The notes under the pieces: model-generated | Told to the model about the DNA's origin: nothing | What the model saw: the letters and a program-made list of their open reading frames with translations, nothing else | Database searches by the model: none | Made by a program: the position numbers and the translations under genes | Source of the DNA: Saccoglossus kowalevskii | Lineage: Eukaryota; Hemichordata; Enteropneusta; Harrimaniidae | Reading direction: 5' to 3' | Assembly: GCF_000003605.2 (NCBI RefSeq) | Contig: NW_003150758.1 | Span: 283,058 to 331,914 of the forward strand | Length of the DNA: 48,857 bases | Shown here: positions 487-47,733 of the stretch, piece by piece | Position numbering within the stretch: position 1 is the stretch's first letter | How the letters are laid out: each line of letters begins with the position of its first letter

Positions 487-3400
487 CAGCCGAGCCAATA
501 ATGTCTTGCTCAAGATATATCTACAGCATAAAACATCGCAAATATTGAATACAACCCCACCTTATCTTGCCTACGAAAATCAGTATTGTTATTATTATAA
601 GATCAGATATTTTGCATGATGTAATATATTAAGCCCTTAGCTGTCCAAGCTAAATCTCTTGCTAATAAAACTCGAGCTACCACTCATGAGCACATACAAC
701 AAAAATGTATGAACTTTTTAAGCGATTACGGAAGCTTATGAGCTATATACTAATTCTAGTACTAACATACAATTCACACACCAAATAATACACTAATTTC
801 TGAGCACAACAAATTACGAGAAATTCAAAACTGTGGCAAATGCGAACTCGGGAGTTCGATTCTTCGCATCACGAGATGTGAATTATTGCAAACAAATAAA
901 TGTAGACAGAGTTGTATATTCAATTATGCAAGACACTTTGAAACAGAACTGAATCATAAACACACAAATACGCGACTGGTGCAGCAATTTCAATGTGTTT
1001 TATTATTACTAAAATGATATTGTTGTACATTGTATCAGAACTATATATTAGTTAATTGCTCAGCTTTTGAAATGAAACAATTCAATAATATAACATTTCA
1101 ATTTATAGCACTCATAAAGGGATCCCAGTTCAAAGGAATACATATGTTTATCTTTGGTGGTTCAAATTCACGAATTATTCTATGTGTTGATGATTGCACT
1201 CCCGCACACGCATGCGCAATGTCATACCGTAACGCCGTACACTGATGAATGATATGTATATTTGATTTCTATTAGCTGCAATTAATTTTGATTGTCATTG
1301 CTCTTTTTTTAGCAATGAGAACAATCGTCATCATTAATCAGTCAGACAGTATCTTGCAGGCAATTATTGAAAACGCTGTGGTCTCATTAAAAGACATCAA
1401 TCATGTCTTAGTGTAAACACGTGATGTCAGGAAAACATTACACTAATGAATTCCGCAATTTCGTAAAGTGTAAATGCATGTTATGTGTGGCAAGCAGTAC
1501 GAAAAGTGTCAAATAGAATATCCTGTTTGAACTCGTAAGCATATCTTGTGCCACAAAAATACAAAAGATAATAAATACCAAAATATAATTCAATATATCA
1601 AGACCCATTCAAATATAACTCATATTATCCCCAAGTAATCCAACGAGTGAAAAATACCATAATGCTAGCAGTGCTGAATATGGTGGTCTTATAAAGAATG
1701 TGATTTCTTATCTACTTTATTTTCTGCTTTTATATTATCCATCTAGCGATCACTATGCTAAAAGATAAAATGAGCAGATATTAGTATATAACAAATATTG
1801 TCCTATTCGATAACGCTATGAAACAGTTATTTCTATTGTGCACAGCAAATAAGGTGGGTATATATGTTTTTATTCTGAAATACTTGCAATCTCTATCTGC
1901 AAGGGGGTTGAACCGCTTATCTATGTAACCATGCACAGTCAACTGGCGTACAAGATGTGTCCAAGATGGCTGCCCCATATAGTAAATATCAGTAAATTGA
2001 TCGCATTTATGTTATTATATCATTCGCTTCGCGACTACTTGCGAAAGAGATATCCAATACAATTTAACAAATAAGAGAGCATGAACACGCAAACAATTTT
2101 GGAACCAACGTGAGTGATTTATTATTAAGTAATTGAAAATATAAAATCACGCCCAACGTTACGGACCGACAAATCGTATGATAGGTTGAGGCCAAGCCGA
2201 GTGTTTATGTATTTCTAATATCATGGATATTAAAACTGTGTTAGTGAATCCTCGTGGTAACGTATGTCCATGTTAATTTAAATTCGTTGCTGAAAAACAC
2301 ATTTATAATAAGAACGTGATAGTTTTCAATACCACATTCATTAAAAATGTGACTATTTTGATGTAAATTGTGCCTATCAATTACTAGTATTCCGAGACAG
2401 CTGTTGAAAGTAGGACAATATCAAATCATGATCCTAAAAGCACGAATGTTGTCTGTATAACGACAGCCTTTACATTTCTTTGTAAACATGCTTATTCTGC
2501 TGTAAACCACGGGTAATTTAAGCTACATCGACATATTTATCGAGTCGCCATAAATCCAACAATATTCGTTGCTATGGTTACCTCATTCATGCAAAATATA
2601 CTCGAAAAGACATTGTATGACAGTGTAAGTCTTGCATTGTTTACCCTTTGGAAGAACCCGCTGGCTGATCGCAAAACACTGCGATAATATCTCAATTTTT
2701 ACAATTTTGTCCAAAGTTAGAGTAAAAGGTTTAATAATTGCCACGCTATTTTACTCAGGATAGGCACATTAAATTACATCACCATGACAACACACAAAAG
2801 AAAATTACACGCAAAAATTGTATCCAATGGATGAAATAATTGGCGTTCCTATGCAACGCGTTCTAGTGTTTGGTGCATGAATGTACACATTCAAAAACGT
2901 TTCTTTATAGACAATTAAAGATTGTCCAGATTTAAAAATTTAGAATAAATATAAATGATGCATGGTAAAGAATTGATGTGAATTGTAAACTGGTAGTTAC
3001 ATGGATACCCGCATATACTGTACCCGCAATACATACATGCATGTACAGGAACATTCGGTATCACGTGACCACCAGTGATTTCGTTAACAGCTGTAATGTG
3101 AGAATGGGAACAGGCACCCGAGGGACTATAATTTCCTGTTGTCTCTTTTTAGTTTATGTCTGACCTTTCTGGGGGTTATTTAGAACAGATTTGTCATTAT
3201 CGACGTGATTAGACAACATATTCGGATAATTAAATGGACTGGAATTCCAAGCAACGACTGTGTGTAGATGTTCAATGTTTCTGTTATATGATGCATATAA
3301 TCTGTGTGTTATATAGTTTGTATATATCGTAATATAGGGTCGATCTACAACAATGCATTTGCCATGACAATAGTGGAAAATTGAATGACACGTGATGCCG

Positions 3401-5815
3401 GTAGGCCGTCAAGGCCGCCTTGTTCTTTCATAAAACTTTAACTGTATGTGCAAGCCTACGGCTTATTTTAGATGTACTGATCATTTGCTTAACAGAATAA
3501 AATTGGGTAAAAATTTGGGTACTTGAAACATGTAAAATGAATAAACAGGAGATATATTATTTGTGGAAGTATAACACCACATTGGGCCAATCATAAAATA
3601 ACACGATAATAAAATTAACAATATACATTAATAACGTACTCTGTTGTTGATTACCCAGTTATTAGTCATAAATTAAGCTTATCAACAGTGCGTACTCATC
3701 GATTATTAATATTATAATCCTAGATTGACCTATCAGGCTATATGCTCGCAGTTTCGTGTGCCTACTACTCATGTAATACGTATTAACCGTAGTGGAAGCT
3801 CGTAGGTCAACCCGGAAATGTTGGTTATTCAATAGAAAATGATAGAAAGTTCAAGTTGGTTGCATAATTACAGACGAATACACATTGCATGTTCCATATA
3901 GTATGTAAAAATGTAGCTTTTGAATATATCATGCAGATTGCACATGGACGTTGCACATTATTACCCTGGTTAATTGGTCGTAAAATATCTCAACTGGTCC
4001 GCAACTGTAAACACATATGATTAATGTGCAAAATATTCCAGTCAATGCCCAGAGAATGTACATGAATATAACAGTACACTTTGAGTCGAGCTCAAAATCA
4101 CCTTCTAACTTATAAACATGTGTTCAATATGCTCAGAATGAATACCACCTGTCACTACGCGTTATGCTTGTATATATATATTTATATGAATGTAGTTGTT
4201 TGTCAATTCCAATGTCACGAATAACAGGAAATTAATAACAATTTAGGTACAAATCATTTTATATTGAGAAAAATGGCGAATTTTCACGGCTCTTTACACG
4301 ATAACCTTTTTATGACATCATTACGCACGTTTTCTATTAAGTTAATCGTGCCGAAATTTAATAAAATCTGTCATTAGCAGAACAATTATTAGACAAGATT
4401 TATATTTACAACACACGGGGTAGCTGTACTATTCAGATACGAATGAATTATAATCTTGTCAACGTACAGCGGATGGAACATTAATTATTATTATATGGTC
4501 ACAATTCGAATTATGCTTCTATGTTTACAAATAATTCATCAATGCCATGTGTCAAATAGAATACTGAATAACATTTATCTTTTACATTATATGTTAAAAT
4601 GTGTGTAGTTTATCGTGACGTTTCAGATAAATTATGTGTTTTTGTAAGCAGTCCTAACACATCGCAAACGGTGATTTTTGTAATTGTGGTTACTCATCAT
4701 CTTATCCATCATGTACATGAATCTGATTATAATAATAAAATTGTATATCCATCTCTCTTCACGTACCATCTAAATGGTCTCTCCTATAATCAGCCTATTG
4801 TAGCTCCCAGTGTTGATTTTGCGCATTAGTTATTTTGAAACATAAAAAAATCATTGCAACTTTAGATTATTTTACTAAACCAGTATTATTTTGCCAAACT
4901 TGATAAAAGTATACTTTTAGTATATTGGTCTTAAATCACATATCTCTCTTGTGAAAACAATGGTACTCGACACACGCTTGATTTTTTGTTTAAAAACAAA
5001 CACGTAATTTGATTGAGTTCTTGACAGGTTAAGAATATGTTTACGTTATTTTTACTTCAATTAAAAATAATAATATATTATTATATTATATAAAATTAAA
5101 AACTAGAACACAGAGATGTTTAAATGATAACATTATTTCTACTTCAATTGAAATATTAGTATTCTAATAGTTGTGGGTTACATTTATTGCTTACATTTGT
5201 ATCTAACATTTGTAAAATAAAATCGAAACTCACTGATCAGAACAGATCATTGTAGGGTAATTTGGTTCATTATATTTCATTTCAGTATTGTATATAATAT
5301 ATTTGTACAGTAACAACATCGAGCTATTCAAATAAAAAAACTCTTTTTCGATGTCAATTATAGCATTGTTTTGACGACAATATTCGATATGCACATAGAG
5401 ATTACGTCACAAAATATACAACTATAATTTTCTTGTCAGCAACCAATGATTGTTGATATCTTATGATGCCAATGTCTGGTAAAGACCAACAAATCCCTGT
5501 TTTATTAAAATATTTGTGATGCGAGAAACATGCAATTGTATATATTCCAATGCCGTTTATTATTCCAATAAGCAAAAAAAAATGTATAATTGTTTTTGTT
5601 TTGTTTTCAACATGTTTAATATGTTTGGTGGTGATTACGATTTAAAATAAACACATACCAGTAGACAATTGTTAATCAACATTATATGTAGTAGTTTCAA
5701 TTTAAATTCTTTCAATTTTGTTTCTCTTGTAATGGAATATATTATTGACACAGCCCTTTTCACTATTTTCCTTACAAGACAAATTAATTATAATAATTTA
5801 GTTAGTTGTTATACA
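487..5815. other. AT-rich non-coding stretch, no gene recognised
   Basis: Only short open frames occur (76 codons or fewer), none with a recognisable domain or a plausible chain of splice sites. There are many homopolymer and TA-rich runs. I see no tRNA, no long repeat and no inverted-repeat element with clear ends. Confidence 0.6.
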
Positions 5816-8428: not shown

Positions 8429-8704
8429 GAATACCTGGACTTATTTCAGTATTTATCATTTTTCAAAATCGTCATGATTTTTACAATACAACGTTATCAT
8501 GATTTTAAAAATAGTATCCCCATTGTCAAAAACACTCCATACCAACCGATAATATATAGGGCAACGGAATACCTGGACTTATTTCAGTATTTATCATTTT
8601 TCAAAATCGTCATGATTTTTACAATACAACGTTATCATGATGTTAAAAATAGTATCCCCATTGTCAAAAACACTCCATACCAACCGATAATATATAGGGC
8701 AACG
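8429..8704 (+). repeat. Near-identical 138-bp tandem duplication
   Basis: Copy 1 is 8429-8566 and copy 2 is 8567-8704. I find one difference (GATTTTAAAA versus GATGTTAAAA), so the duplication is recent. The length is a multiple of three, so it keeps an open frame (8384-8887, 167 codons) with a repeated 46-residue block. The frame has no recognised domain; I infer chance preservation rather than a gene. Confidence 0.95.
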
Positions 8705-8924
8705 GAGAATAAATTATATATCGCAATTATTCTTGATTATCTATGTCCCCAGGCAGTATGTGTGACTGTTGAGCTAGTAATGTGTGTATACACGAGGGTC
8801 GTAAGCACGGTAAATGGAGTACTGATAAATGGTGTTTTAGTATGTATATATAACGATATCAAATATTTGATTTCCATTTTCTCCTAATCGACAGCAGTTT
8901 GAGCAAATGTTTGAAGTAAAGCAC

Positions 8925-33355: not shown

Positions 33356-35216
33356 CTTAAGTCCGAGGTGTTGAATTGTTTGAGTCACGGACATCGAGTT
33401 ACGAACATAGAGTTACGAAAACATTGAGTTACAGAAATGACCACGCCCACAAATTTTAAAACCACGCCATTTTTATGAAACCACGTCAAAATTGTAACTC
33501 GATGTTCCATTAACAGTTAACAGAACTTCGAGTTACAAGCAATATACATTTTGGTTTTTGTTGAACGTCCACATTCTGTAACTCGAAGTTTAAAAAACAG
33601 CTAACCAAACTTCGAGTTACGGGCAACATATATTTTTTGTTTTGTTTAACTTTCAAATTTTGTAATTCGACCTTTAATCAACAGTTATTCAAACTTCGAG
33701 TTGGTAACTCGAAATTTAATTAACAGTTAACCAAAGTTGGAGTTACGGACAACATAAAATTTGTTGTTGTTTAATGTCCATATTAAGTAACACAAATTTT
33801 AATTAACAGTTATCATAACTTCGGCCTGGATTACGGTAACGTGATCCCTGGCTAATGACGGCCAAGTGAATTTCTAATATTTTCTGGAATCTAACCGTGA
33901 CATCTTGGTTTTTGGCGTAATTCAACTAATGAATTGACGGAACAAAATCACAATTTAAAGTTTAGCTGTAGTTTTCAAAGTTATGATTTGGTGGCAACAC
34001 TGCCCTTTAGAAAATAGGATTTTGAAATGAACAATGGAAAATCAAAATGCTATTTTTAATTTGAGGCTTTTCATTTCATTGATGCGCTGGGGGGGGGGGG
34101 GGGTTACTGTCGTGGCCAAACGATAATAGATCAAATGCAAGCGGAATCAACGTATCCATATCCAATGTATCGTGTAATGTTTTAGACACGTAATTTTGTT
34201 TACAGACAACTTCATTTACAATGCGATCCACTTATTAGAGGGTGTACACCACGATGATTATAGAATCGTCGCACACCTCTTTCAGTAATTCCTCTATGCT
34301 CGTATATTGAGGGCCAACCATCATCCCGTTGTGAGAAGTCCCCTGTTTGACAAGAAAACTCATATACTCAATGTCACCAATTTTTTCGATCTCCATTTCA
34401 ATTAGCAAAGACATGAATCGATTAGCGTGGCTTAGTTCTAGAATATAATGACCTCACGTACGAAACGAGCACATGTCTATCTATACGAATATTAAAAAGT
34501 CAGCGTCAAACATTCACATCTACATACCGCCTTTCATTGTTGACCACAAGCTTGCTTGTTTCAACCTTTGGGCTTAGTCGCTGTGCGCGTTTGTAATGCC
34601 GCAACAATGTTACTGTTATTATTGCAACACCACGCGATGGAATTGACTATTAAATGTGAAGATTTGTGAATCTGTTTGTCTGATTACACGTGTTGAACCA
34701 GACACGGACGAAAGTTGTGCGCTGTTCAATTTACAATGAATCGTTAGATGATATAAGAGAGTGAGTTGGAGATGATGAATGATGGAATGACGCTGACGAA
34801 GAAGTATCATGACACCAGTCTATGCAAGACGTCGACAAAAAGTTGTGAAGATGTAGTACAGGTGAATAAGCCCAAAAGTCGAAACAAGCAATCTTAATGC
34901 GTGGTCAAAAAGAAAAGACTGTACGTGGACATTTGAACAATAACAAAAAACTACGTTGCCGTAACTCGAAGTTGAAGTTATGTTAACTGTTAATTAAATA
35001 TCGAGTTAATAAATAGTTAATAATAGTTAAGGTCGAAATACAAAATATGAAAGTTAAACAAAACAAAAAATATATGTTGCCTGTAACTCAAAGTTCTATT
35101 AACTGTTAATTGAACATCGAGTTACAAAAGTGGGCGTGGTTTTAAAAATATGGGCGTGGTCATTTCTGTAACTCGATATTTACGAAACTCGAACAATTCA
35201 ACATCTCCTTAAGTCC
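33356..35216. mobile_element. Complete foldback element with 9-bp target duplication (Mutator-like)
   Basis: CTTAAGTCC occurs at 33356-33364 and 35208-35216, directly outside inverted ends GAGGTGTTGAATTG (from 33365) and, on the other strand, GAGATGTTGAATTG (from 35207). Element length is 1843 bp. Terminal inverted repeats extend for several hundred bases on each side and contain ACCACGCCCA-type and GTAACTCGA-type blocks. The left arm holds repeats of about 84 bp starting at 33493, 33578, 33662, 33704 (after a short unit) and 33787. Each pairs GTAACTCGAAGTT with AACTTCGAGTTAC and so can fold on itself. A 9-bp duplication with long inverted ends is characteristic of Mutator-like elements. No transposase was recognised. 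Confidence 0.88.
34235..34414 (-). CDS. 59-codon ORF inside the foldback element
   Basis: The minus-strand frame opens after a TGA near 34441 and ends in TAA at 34235-34237; the first ATG is at 34414. It reads like real protein: a helix-like SLLIEMEIEKIGDIEYM, a central HNGMMVG, and an acidic IEELLKEVCDD stretch followed by IIIVVYTL. I recognise no family. It lies between the inverted arms, so it may be a captured gene fragment or a piece of the element's own protein. Not proven to be expressed. Confidence 0.35.
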   Translation of the reverse strand: MSLLIEMEIEKIGDIEYMSFLVKQGTSHNGMMVGPQYTSIEELLKEVCDDSIIIVVYTL

Positions 35217-35645
35217 ATTACTTTATGAATAATAGTCAATAAATCATTAACTTTAGTAATCAATTTGGTTCTTATGTAGTAATTACCTTTGTATACAATG
35301 TGAGAATCGGCAGTTTATCCAGGATTGCTGTGCTGTAAAAATACTTAGAAATGTGGCTTAGTTGAATCCTCAGCATAATTGTCTAAGAAAGAATGATATG
35401 AGCAAATAAATGAACAATCTGCAGCTCACTAAAGTACGTCAGCATTTTATGTGACTTGTTTGGTTGATTGAACATTGAATGACTTGACTAATAATTAATA
35501 ATGTTAAAATTACATTATCTATTGGCCTACATATCCCGCCAACTATTGGTAAATCCAAATACCCCAGTACAGCCATTTAAAACAAGTCATTGAAAATGAC
35601 ACAGTCCCCGTTAAATTTTTGAAAGTTCTCTTTGTGCTCGTCATA

Positions 35646-35705
35646 TTAAAGCGGAGGGGTTGTCGCGAGCGTGTCCTTGAAACTTGAGTTCCAAGTGGCG
35701 TATAC
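35646..35705 (+). mobile_element. Single left end of the TTAA MITE family
   Basis: TTAA at 35646-35649 followed by AGCGGAGGGGTTGTCGCG matches the left end at 13187 (AGCGGAGGGGTCGTC). TTGAGTTCCAAGT further on parallels the TTTGAGTCCGAATCG there. I did not find a matching right end; it is probably truncated or strongly diverged. Confidence 0.55.
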
Positions 35706-46169: not shown

Positions 46170-46772
46170 GTATAATGGCATGATGTAGCATATGCCATGT
46201 CTTTTCAACGTTGGTAACAAGTATCATGGTCAAATTGTGGTTTGTTTCCCTTAGGAAAAACAGTGATAAAACAGTGTTTCACTAGGGCTAAAATAGTCGT
46301 GATGGCTAACGTTGTTTTTCTTAGCCAATAGGAACTTGTTTTACCACAGACAGCGCAAAATTGCATTTCGACCGTTCATAATTTTTCAGATTCATGTACC
46401 AAAATTTGATAACTTGTCATGCTTTTGTGTTTCAAAAAAACAAACATAATAATTTTTCATTTTTATTTAATATCTTGAATGCCCACAAATGACCTTAAAG
46501 CAAAATGTTTATTTTTGTTTTTCTGTTGGTGATTGCATGATGTCTTTAAATGTCATCACCGTTTTTTTAAGAATAATTCATGGTTTGTAAATTGTCTTGA
46601 CTTAACTTCCGTGTATGATATGTAAGCAAGTATTTTCTACTTTATTCTTGAAAACTGTTTTTAACACATTGACAGCCATAGGATTATTTGTTGCCCATAA
46701 CGAATAGAGTAGAATTTGTGTGGCCTCCAGTGTGTTAGTCTAACTGGTGTGACTGTTTTTTTTTTTTTGCAG

Positions 46773-46940
46773 ATTGAGTCTGGTCAGTATTGTACATTTG
46801 TCATTTCACCTGATGGATCAGTAAGAGCTTGTGGAAAAGGAAGTTATGGACGTCTTGGCCTTGGAGATTCAAATAATCAACCACAACTTAAAAAAATCAA
46901 TTTTGAAACACACGTCATACGGAAAACCTCTTCATCTAAG
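46773..46940 (+). CDS. HERC1: HERC1, coding exon 4 (residues 410-465; RCC1 repeat)
   Basis: A 168-bp exon after a long T-tract and GCAG, ending before GTATGT, phase 0. It encodes GQYCTFVISPDGSVRACGKG and SYGRLGLGDSNNQ, a classic RCC1 repeat with the GxGxxGRLG turn, almost the same as human HERC1 at this place. The frame staying open past 46940 is intron. Confidence 0.95.
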
Positions 46941-47733
46941 GTATGTTGTATTGTTATATATGTATATAATCCCATGATATTTTCTCTTAGGTTGACACCA
47001 GCAGACAAGATTGAGATTATATATTTGAGTGTTGACAGTGGAATTATTGCTGAAAAAACACTGAATACAAATATATCATTTTGCAAGCCTTTTATGCTAA
47101 TTATTTTGACGGCAAGGTGTTTCGCATTGCTTGTGGGTCACAATACAGGTTTTATCTGTATTAGATTTTTGAAAAACATTCATAATTTTCTTGTTACATA
47201 TTGTGTGCGATATACATGTACACTACCATGGGAATATCTATTTCTATAGGCAGTGGGATGCTGTTTTAGATATGGATCTGACATTGTTTTTTGCCCTACT
47301 TTGACTACTACGGCTTACATTACCTTGACTGAATTCCACATATGCTTGTGCTCAACTGCTTCGGTTAATGCCGATGTAGCTCAGATTGTCATAACTCTAT
47401 TGTGACAGAAAGAGTGTCACACATTCCGGAGAGGTAGTTCCAAATATGAAAAATTCTTTCTGTATTAAAATGCACTATACCGGTATCTACCATCATCATC
47501 ATTTGCACTTACAATTTGTACATTAAAAAGGTCATGATAACAGTCAAATTCAGTGTTATTGTTGTCTATTAAAAAAAAACACATTCACAAACTCCAAAGT
47601 AAAGTAAATATCCATTTATATTAAGTAAGTAATTATTGATACACAAACAATACTACATTATTTTTGCTATCAGCAGCAAAGATGAAACTGCTATAAATGC
47701 TCTTATAAATGTACATGTATAAATTGCTTGCAG

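Follow-up and report, generated by a model that had tools for sequence, protein, structure and literature searches.

The Drosophila FB/NOF element and Phantom have long, internally repetitive ends, target duplications of about 9 bp and a MULE-type transposase, and Galileo makes 7-bp duplications. Phantom has been described with duplications of 8–10 bp and with a minisatellite in aphids (PMC6446971). Tm1, a Mutator/Foldback element of Meloidogyne root-knot nematodes, makes 9-bp duplications and has composite ends in which the number of ~14-bp repeats varies; its ends are unequal, and its copies are mostly non-autonomous, 0.17–2.6 kb in length and diverged, with one copy encoding a FLYWCH-MULE protein (PMC3169594). 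Tetris, a foldback element of Drosophila virilis, has repeat-built arms and duplications of 8–10 bp, no transposase having been found (PMC4079207). For Galileo, which belongs to the P superfamily of Drosophila, the THAP domain of the transposase binds several sites in the repeat-built arms, whereas for Foldback and Phantom elements a role of the repeats as binding sites was described as untested in the 2013 Discussion of the same paper (PMC3688188). MULEs have also been recorded in molluscs by a bivalve survey, in the main text of which the word 'foldback' is absent (PMC10294476).

The DNA analyzed here, called the window, is the whole stretch of 48,857 nucleotides from Saccoglossus kowalevskii (contig NW_003150758.1, positions 283,058 to 331,914). 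Comparison of flanks and ends in the window delimited an element with inverted arms, enclosed by a perfect 9-bp target site duplication, CTTAAGTCC, at 33356–33364 and 35208–35216 (0 mismatches). A foldback element with a 9-bp duplication and with ends at 33365 and 35207 had been proposed from the letters alone, and both the element and its coordinates were borne out exactly. The tips read GAGGTGTTGAATTGTT... on the left and ...AACAATTCAACATCTC on the right, with the complementarity of the arms arranged in blocks of 101 nt at 87%, 95 nt at 83% and, at the tips, 30 nt at 80%. The features of the element, with strand where one was assigned, were as follows.

33356..33364, plus strand: left target site duplication CTTAAGTCC, by flank match
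33365..35207, no strand assigned: whole element, 1,843 bp, by arms and flanks; end pattern found 463 times genome-wide
33365..33840, plus strand: left arm, comprising the tip, the 14-bp tier, a spacer with GACCACGCCC and five 43-bp palindromic units
about 33380..33432, plus strand: outer tier of the left arm, four motif repeats at steps of 14, 14 and 16 bp
33494..33829, plus strand: inner tier of the left arm, palindromic units (43 bp) starting at 33494, 33578, 33662, 33704 and 33787
33843..34504 (right limit approximate), plus strand: nested second DNA transposon, remnant
34507..34942, plus strand: middle that belongs to the family itself, with the innermost inverted part
34943..35207, minus strand: right arm, comprising two palindromic units (34967–35009 and 35083–35125), the GACCACGCCC spacer, two outer repeats and the tip
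35208..35216, plus strand: right target site duplication CTTAAGTCC, by flank match

Elsewhere in the window, the frame at 46716–47246 matched RCC1 repeats, two tandem copies of 138 bp that are 99% alike were seen at 8429–8706, and a tandem array of about nine copies of a 50-bp unit occupied positions 1–463 at the window edge. No RNA family reached its gathering score in the window, and viral contigs contained no stretch that matched the end pattern of the family exactly.

The arms are built in two tiers, with 14-bp repeats outside and ~84-bp units containing a 43-bp palindrome inside, having the core TCGAGTTAC in common. This core occurs in three settings: beside the tip, at steps of 14 bp (sometimes 16) inside the tip, and in both halves of the palindromes. 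Nine of its ten exact occurrences in the window fall within the arms, as do 16 of the 23 found when allowing at most one mismatch. Across the loci read, the commonest spacing of cores in opposite direction was 34 bp, and that of cores in the same direction 14, 84, 28 and 42 bp. The units of the left arm follow each other at 84, 84, 42 and 83 bp, the last of them (start 33787) being degenerate, and the two arms of the window copy are unequal, having five inner units on the left versus two, 116 bp apart, on the right. Thus, the proposal that the arms consist of ~84-bp units agreed with the 84-bp spacing, with one half-step; the sequence GTAACTCGAAGTT and its complement, which had been assigned to the units in general, were both exact in one unit only, with mismatches in the others.

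Among 42 ends in 32 loci, the outer repeats numbered between 1 and 26, a count that omits ends lacking the core beside the tip, and the longest runs held 8, 12, 12 and 26 repeats. Where the arms could be distinguished, the inner units varied from none (left arm of L011) to five (left arms of the window copy and L010). The ends are, as in the foldback class, long, inverted and internally repetitive, with arm length and repeat number differing between arms and between copies. As a separate observation, the outer tier of one arm in L044 (about 3380–3759) consists of 26 repeats in exact 14-bp steps and resembles a satellite seed.

FB/NOF and Phantom can be likened to the window family by description rather than by sequence. 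With Tm1, as far as the available text describes it, the likeness covers the 9-bp duplications, the variable ~14-bp repeats, the unequal ends and the mostly non-autonomous, diverged copies; Tm1 differs in its asymmetric 7-bp motifs outside the repeat and in its FLYWCH-MULE-coding copy, and the inner tier of 84-bp palindromic units belongs to the window family, none being described for Tm1 in that text, in a comparison made by description without alignment (PMC3169594). The foldback arms with internal tandem repeats, duplications in the range of 8–10 bp and the fact that no transposase was found are shared with Tetris, which differs by its repeat, TIR-220, grown into satellite-like arrays (PMC4079207). 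Galileo likewise has long arms with internal repeats, which in Galileo contain extra sites for the THAP domain of its transposase; it differs in that this transposase is of the P type (PMC3688188). The architecture had been thought rarely described for animal Mutator-like elements, a view that is not supported in light of the composite ends, 9-bp duplications and MULE transposase of Tm1 (PMC3169594) and the similar build of Tetris (PMC4079207). Among the open-licence papers listed, no title or abstract opening described the window family itself, which is weak evidence. The window family is a further repeat-armed foldback family, with a design already described in animals.

The genome examined comprised 572 Mb in 4,830 contigs. 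Searching it with the end pattern at up to three mismatches gave 463 matches, versus one for the reversed pattern used as control, with 70 exact matches among the 100 places listed of the 463; a search with the left arm gave at least 79 matches (40 of 578 candidates scored). For closer study we used 39 loci, being the window copy and 38 places chosen by likeness to its left arm. Using relaxed tips, an end was recognized in 35 of these 39 loci (all except L009, L038, L039 and L043), and inverted end-pairs, 14 in number, were found in 12 of them. Flanks of 9 bp around paired ends were identical at the window copy, L010, L011 and L041, had one mismatch at L031 and L036, and two at L014 and L025. 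The best flank agreement of L028 was two mismatches at 8 bp, and the paired ends of L015, L017 and L033 showed no duplication at the lengths compared (6 to 12). Flanks with no or one mismatch were thereby seen for six of the 14 end-pairs at 9 bp and for none at 6–8 or 10–12 bp. When flanks were instead compared across different loci as a control, none of 154 combinations of paired ends, and none of 686 using all recognized ends, had zero or one mismatch, with two mismatches found in 2/154 and 2/686, respectively.

A perfect 9-bp repeat was also present at L016, although this locus failed the stricter tip filter, and at L022, where just 8 bp of one tip remains; L026, outside the tip filter, showed no duplication. 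In 28 loci, a repeat of the flank was sought from a single end over 5 kb, and 26 of these loci yielded no acceptable partner; the sequence of L021 is interrupted by an N gap, and that of L032 ends with its contig. The sequence-only reading had suggested a genome-wide search with the terminal sequence, and the outcome agreed with it on both counts, since the same ends were shared by other copies (463 matches) and perfect 9-bp duplications were found in L010, L011, L016, L022 and L041. The element is one non-coding copy of a dispersed family. Its unequal and internally repetitive arms could also be expected of an inverted repeat that arose by chance or recombination, as inverted duplications can look like this, but 463 dispersed ends and 9-bp duplications at unrelated sites make such a non-transposon origin so improbable that we give it practically no weight.

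Some individual loci can be mentioned here. L016 and L017 were considered as one insertion in two alleles, which was rejected with flanks being mostly 81–85% alike, and they are taken as old duplicated regions. Two family loci lie near coding stretches, L009 near one for CRAL-TRIO and L023 near one for tyrosinase; in L023, a one-armed copy (about 3022–3495) is located between two tyrosinase-matching stretches and, judged by eye, seems to take up the larger part of a short intron.

Comparison with other copies revealed that the stretch from 33843 to about 34504 is foreign to the family. In L010 it corresponds to another transposon, 972 bp long, whose ends are identical at 36 of 40 positions and which has CAACGT on both sides; this transposon is common to the window copy, L010 and L011, with an identical starting point in the arm of the window copy and L010. 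The window copy of the nested transposon lacks the right part. We infer from its presence in the three copies and the common start in two of them that it probably entered an ancestral copy and was carried along, with the window lineage later losing part of it. Parts of the nested transposon also match many places absent from the listed arm matches (40 of 137 candidates scored). The sequence at 34507–34942, on the other hand, recurs in other copies, e.g. L010, L017, L024 and L042, and its innermost inverted part pairs 34548–34579 with 34864–34895. The element had been called intact and full-length; the former is correct for the ends and the duplication but not for the middle with its transposon remnant, and the latter fails with the truncated nested insertion that the middle contains. 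Two further observations concern the nested sequence: a run of about 15 G at window positions 34089–34103 is located inside the remnant and missing from L010, and three partial matches to the nested transposon at C4698 positions 91, 7062 and 14036, at a spacing of ~7 kb, suggest a long tandem repeat there.

With regards to the age of the window copy, its perfect duplication had been interpreted as a sign of fairly recent movement. The left arm does not support this, as it differs by 9% from the consensus and by 10% from the nearest compared copy: its K2P distance to the consensus was 0.090 (median 0.0945 for 45 arms from 38 loci) and that to the nearest copy 0.104, with no arm pair below 0.059, for arms that were picked by likeness to the window arm rather than as a random family sample and where subfamily structure could inflate the distance. 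At ~9% change a perfect 9-bp pair is estimated to survive in roughly one case in five (0.91 to the 18th power), and with an arm 9% diverged the perfect pair therefore does not require recent movement. Judged by this divergence, the window copy is most probably old. In a search for the empty site, the right flank (35217–35700) had one full match, to the window itself, among the best 40 of 943 candidates, and these showed no second allele; just 40 were scored because the last 120 bases of the flank are a high-copy repeat. That part of the window (35580–35700) belongs to a very young high-copy repeat, found at 95–100% identity in at least 39 other places (40 of 943 candidates scored).

The palindromic units could be of importance either as structures or as paired motifs. 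Folding of six of the seven units as single-stranded DNA, scored against shuffles, gave strong hairpins for three of the five left units and for the single right unit included (z −6.0, −6.1, −3.0 and −4.6), and none for the remaining two left units. These four of six would agree with the units being kept as hairpins or cruciforms that are important for transposition or genome instability, the structure rather than the motif being selected, and so would the position pair 14–30, which exceeded the expectation (0.57 vs 0.41, with C-G and T-A types). However, when 112 units were taken from the 39 loci, complementarity did not exceed the prediction from column frequencies at the remaining 20 of the 21 position pairs, in a test limited by the selection of units by likeness to one reference palindrome (at most 12 of 43 substitutions). 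The hairpin has moreover been lost in two of the five left-arm units, and the core also occurs unpaired at 14-bp steps near the tips. We hence regard selection for hairpins as quite unlikely, and the near absence of compensatory change favours that the units would be paired protein-binding sites. Strong hairpins are formed by four of the six folded units, but the nested hairpins proposed earlier are not supported as the functional feature, since general covariation was not seen. A motif read by a protein would explain both the direct and the inverted repeats by one cause.

Duplications of nine bases point first to MULE-type enzymes, for which 8–11 bp, mostly 9, are typical; those of the window copy, L010, L011, L016, L022 and L041, as well as of L031 and L036 with one mismatch, fall in this range. 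The profile of the MULE domain matched the genome at 12 places, five of which were read (L047–L051). L047, about 1.5 kb long, has a MULE domain, ends with ~15-bp repeats in inverted runs (repeats identified by eye) and a perfect 9-bp flank repeat, ATGCAGTGG, on both sides, also found by eye; L049, which is related to L047, carries a 15-bp array on one side. In L048 (about 1176–4560), a MULE frame is located between inverted arms of 52-bp repeats, with 14 copies in one arm and 3 in the other, outside which lie 15-bp repeats; no target duplication was found. No inverted repeat-built arms were seen in the 4.0 and 3.4 kb read of L050 and L051. Elements that combine a MULE domain with inverted ends made of repeats do exist in this genome. 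The likeness of L047 and L048 to the window family lies in the repeat-built inverted ends, and for L048 also in the two tiers (15-bp outer and 52-bp inner); they differ in their repeat sequences and in holding MULE domains.

The link of these MULE matches to the window family is one that we infer. A tip like that of the family was absent from the stretches read around five of the 12 matches, with weak look-alikes (up to six mismatches, without the core motif) in L047 and L051, and none of the 12 was within 10 kb of family places among the matches listed (about 40 scored; 100 of 463; 100 of 166). When five MULE pieces from L047–L051 were compared by tblastn with the window and the 38 fetched loci, no match reached E≤1. 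A profile search of the genome for FLYWCH found no match, being silent also in every control genome. No transposase was present in any family copy read, nor was a partner with the same ends found. Assignment as Mutator-like is likely, as indicated by the 9-bp duplications, but unproven with no transposase in the copies read; among the 12 MULE matches as candidates for the autonomous partner, none of the five read has these ends.

The Merlin superfamily makes duplications of 8–9 bp, and a Merlin-type transposase domain, the single match of that profile search in the genome, was found at C3085:399124–399462 in an uninterrupted frame of 365 amino acids. Together with the description of Rehavkus as having 9-bp duplications, inverted ends of 26–400 bp and a minisatellite (PMC6446971), this would fit a mover outside the MULE type that gives duplications of ~9 bp, Merlin-like or Rehavkus-like. 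Rehavkus is characterized by a PHD-finger transposase along with its minisatellite. We consider such a non-MULE mover unlikely, as the Merlin contig is not among the family places listed and at least two of the five MULE matches read lie within inverted ends that are built of repeats in a similar style.

In our main reading, at a probability of roughly 0.75, the element is a foldback-type DNA transposon that moves by cut and paste but is non-autonomous, most likely depending on a MULE transposase acting in trans. The transposase would bind the many cores in the arms, these being putative binding sites, bring both ends together and cut at the tips, whereupon the ends would be joined to a target site cleaved with a stagger of 9 bp, repair of which would give the 9-bp duplication. 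The arm repeats would serve as extra binding sites, with their number drifting by slippage or unequal exchange. A more speculative extension, which we find doubtful but worth stating, is that the whole arm may have grown from one transposase-binding core in two ways, the core being copied head to tail in 14-bp steps near the tip and, further in, as an inverted pair with a spacing of 34 bp that recurs about every 84 bp (roughly eight helical turns). The elements would then be phased landing arrays, and at least one MULE lineage with unrelated repeats, that of L048, may have reached the same two-tier plan independently.

The finding adds a family with several hundred recognizable ends to the repeat-armed elements. 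Because one core is found in both direct and inverted settings, at regular spacing and with 1 to 26 outer repeats, this family provides a natural series for testing such arms as transposase-binding arrays.
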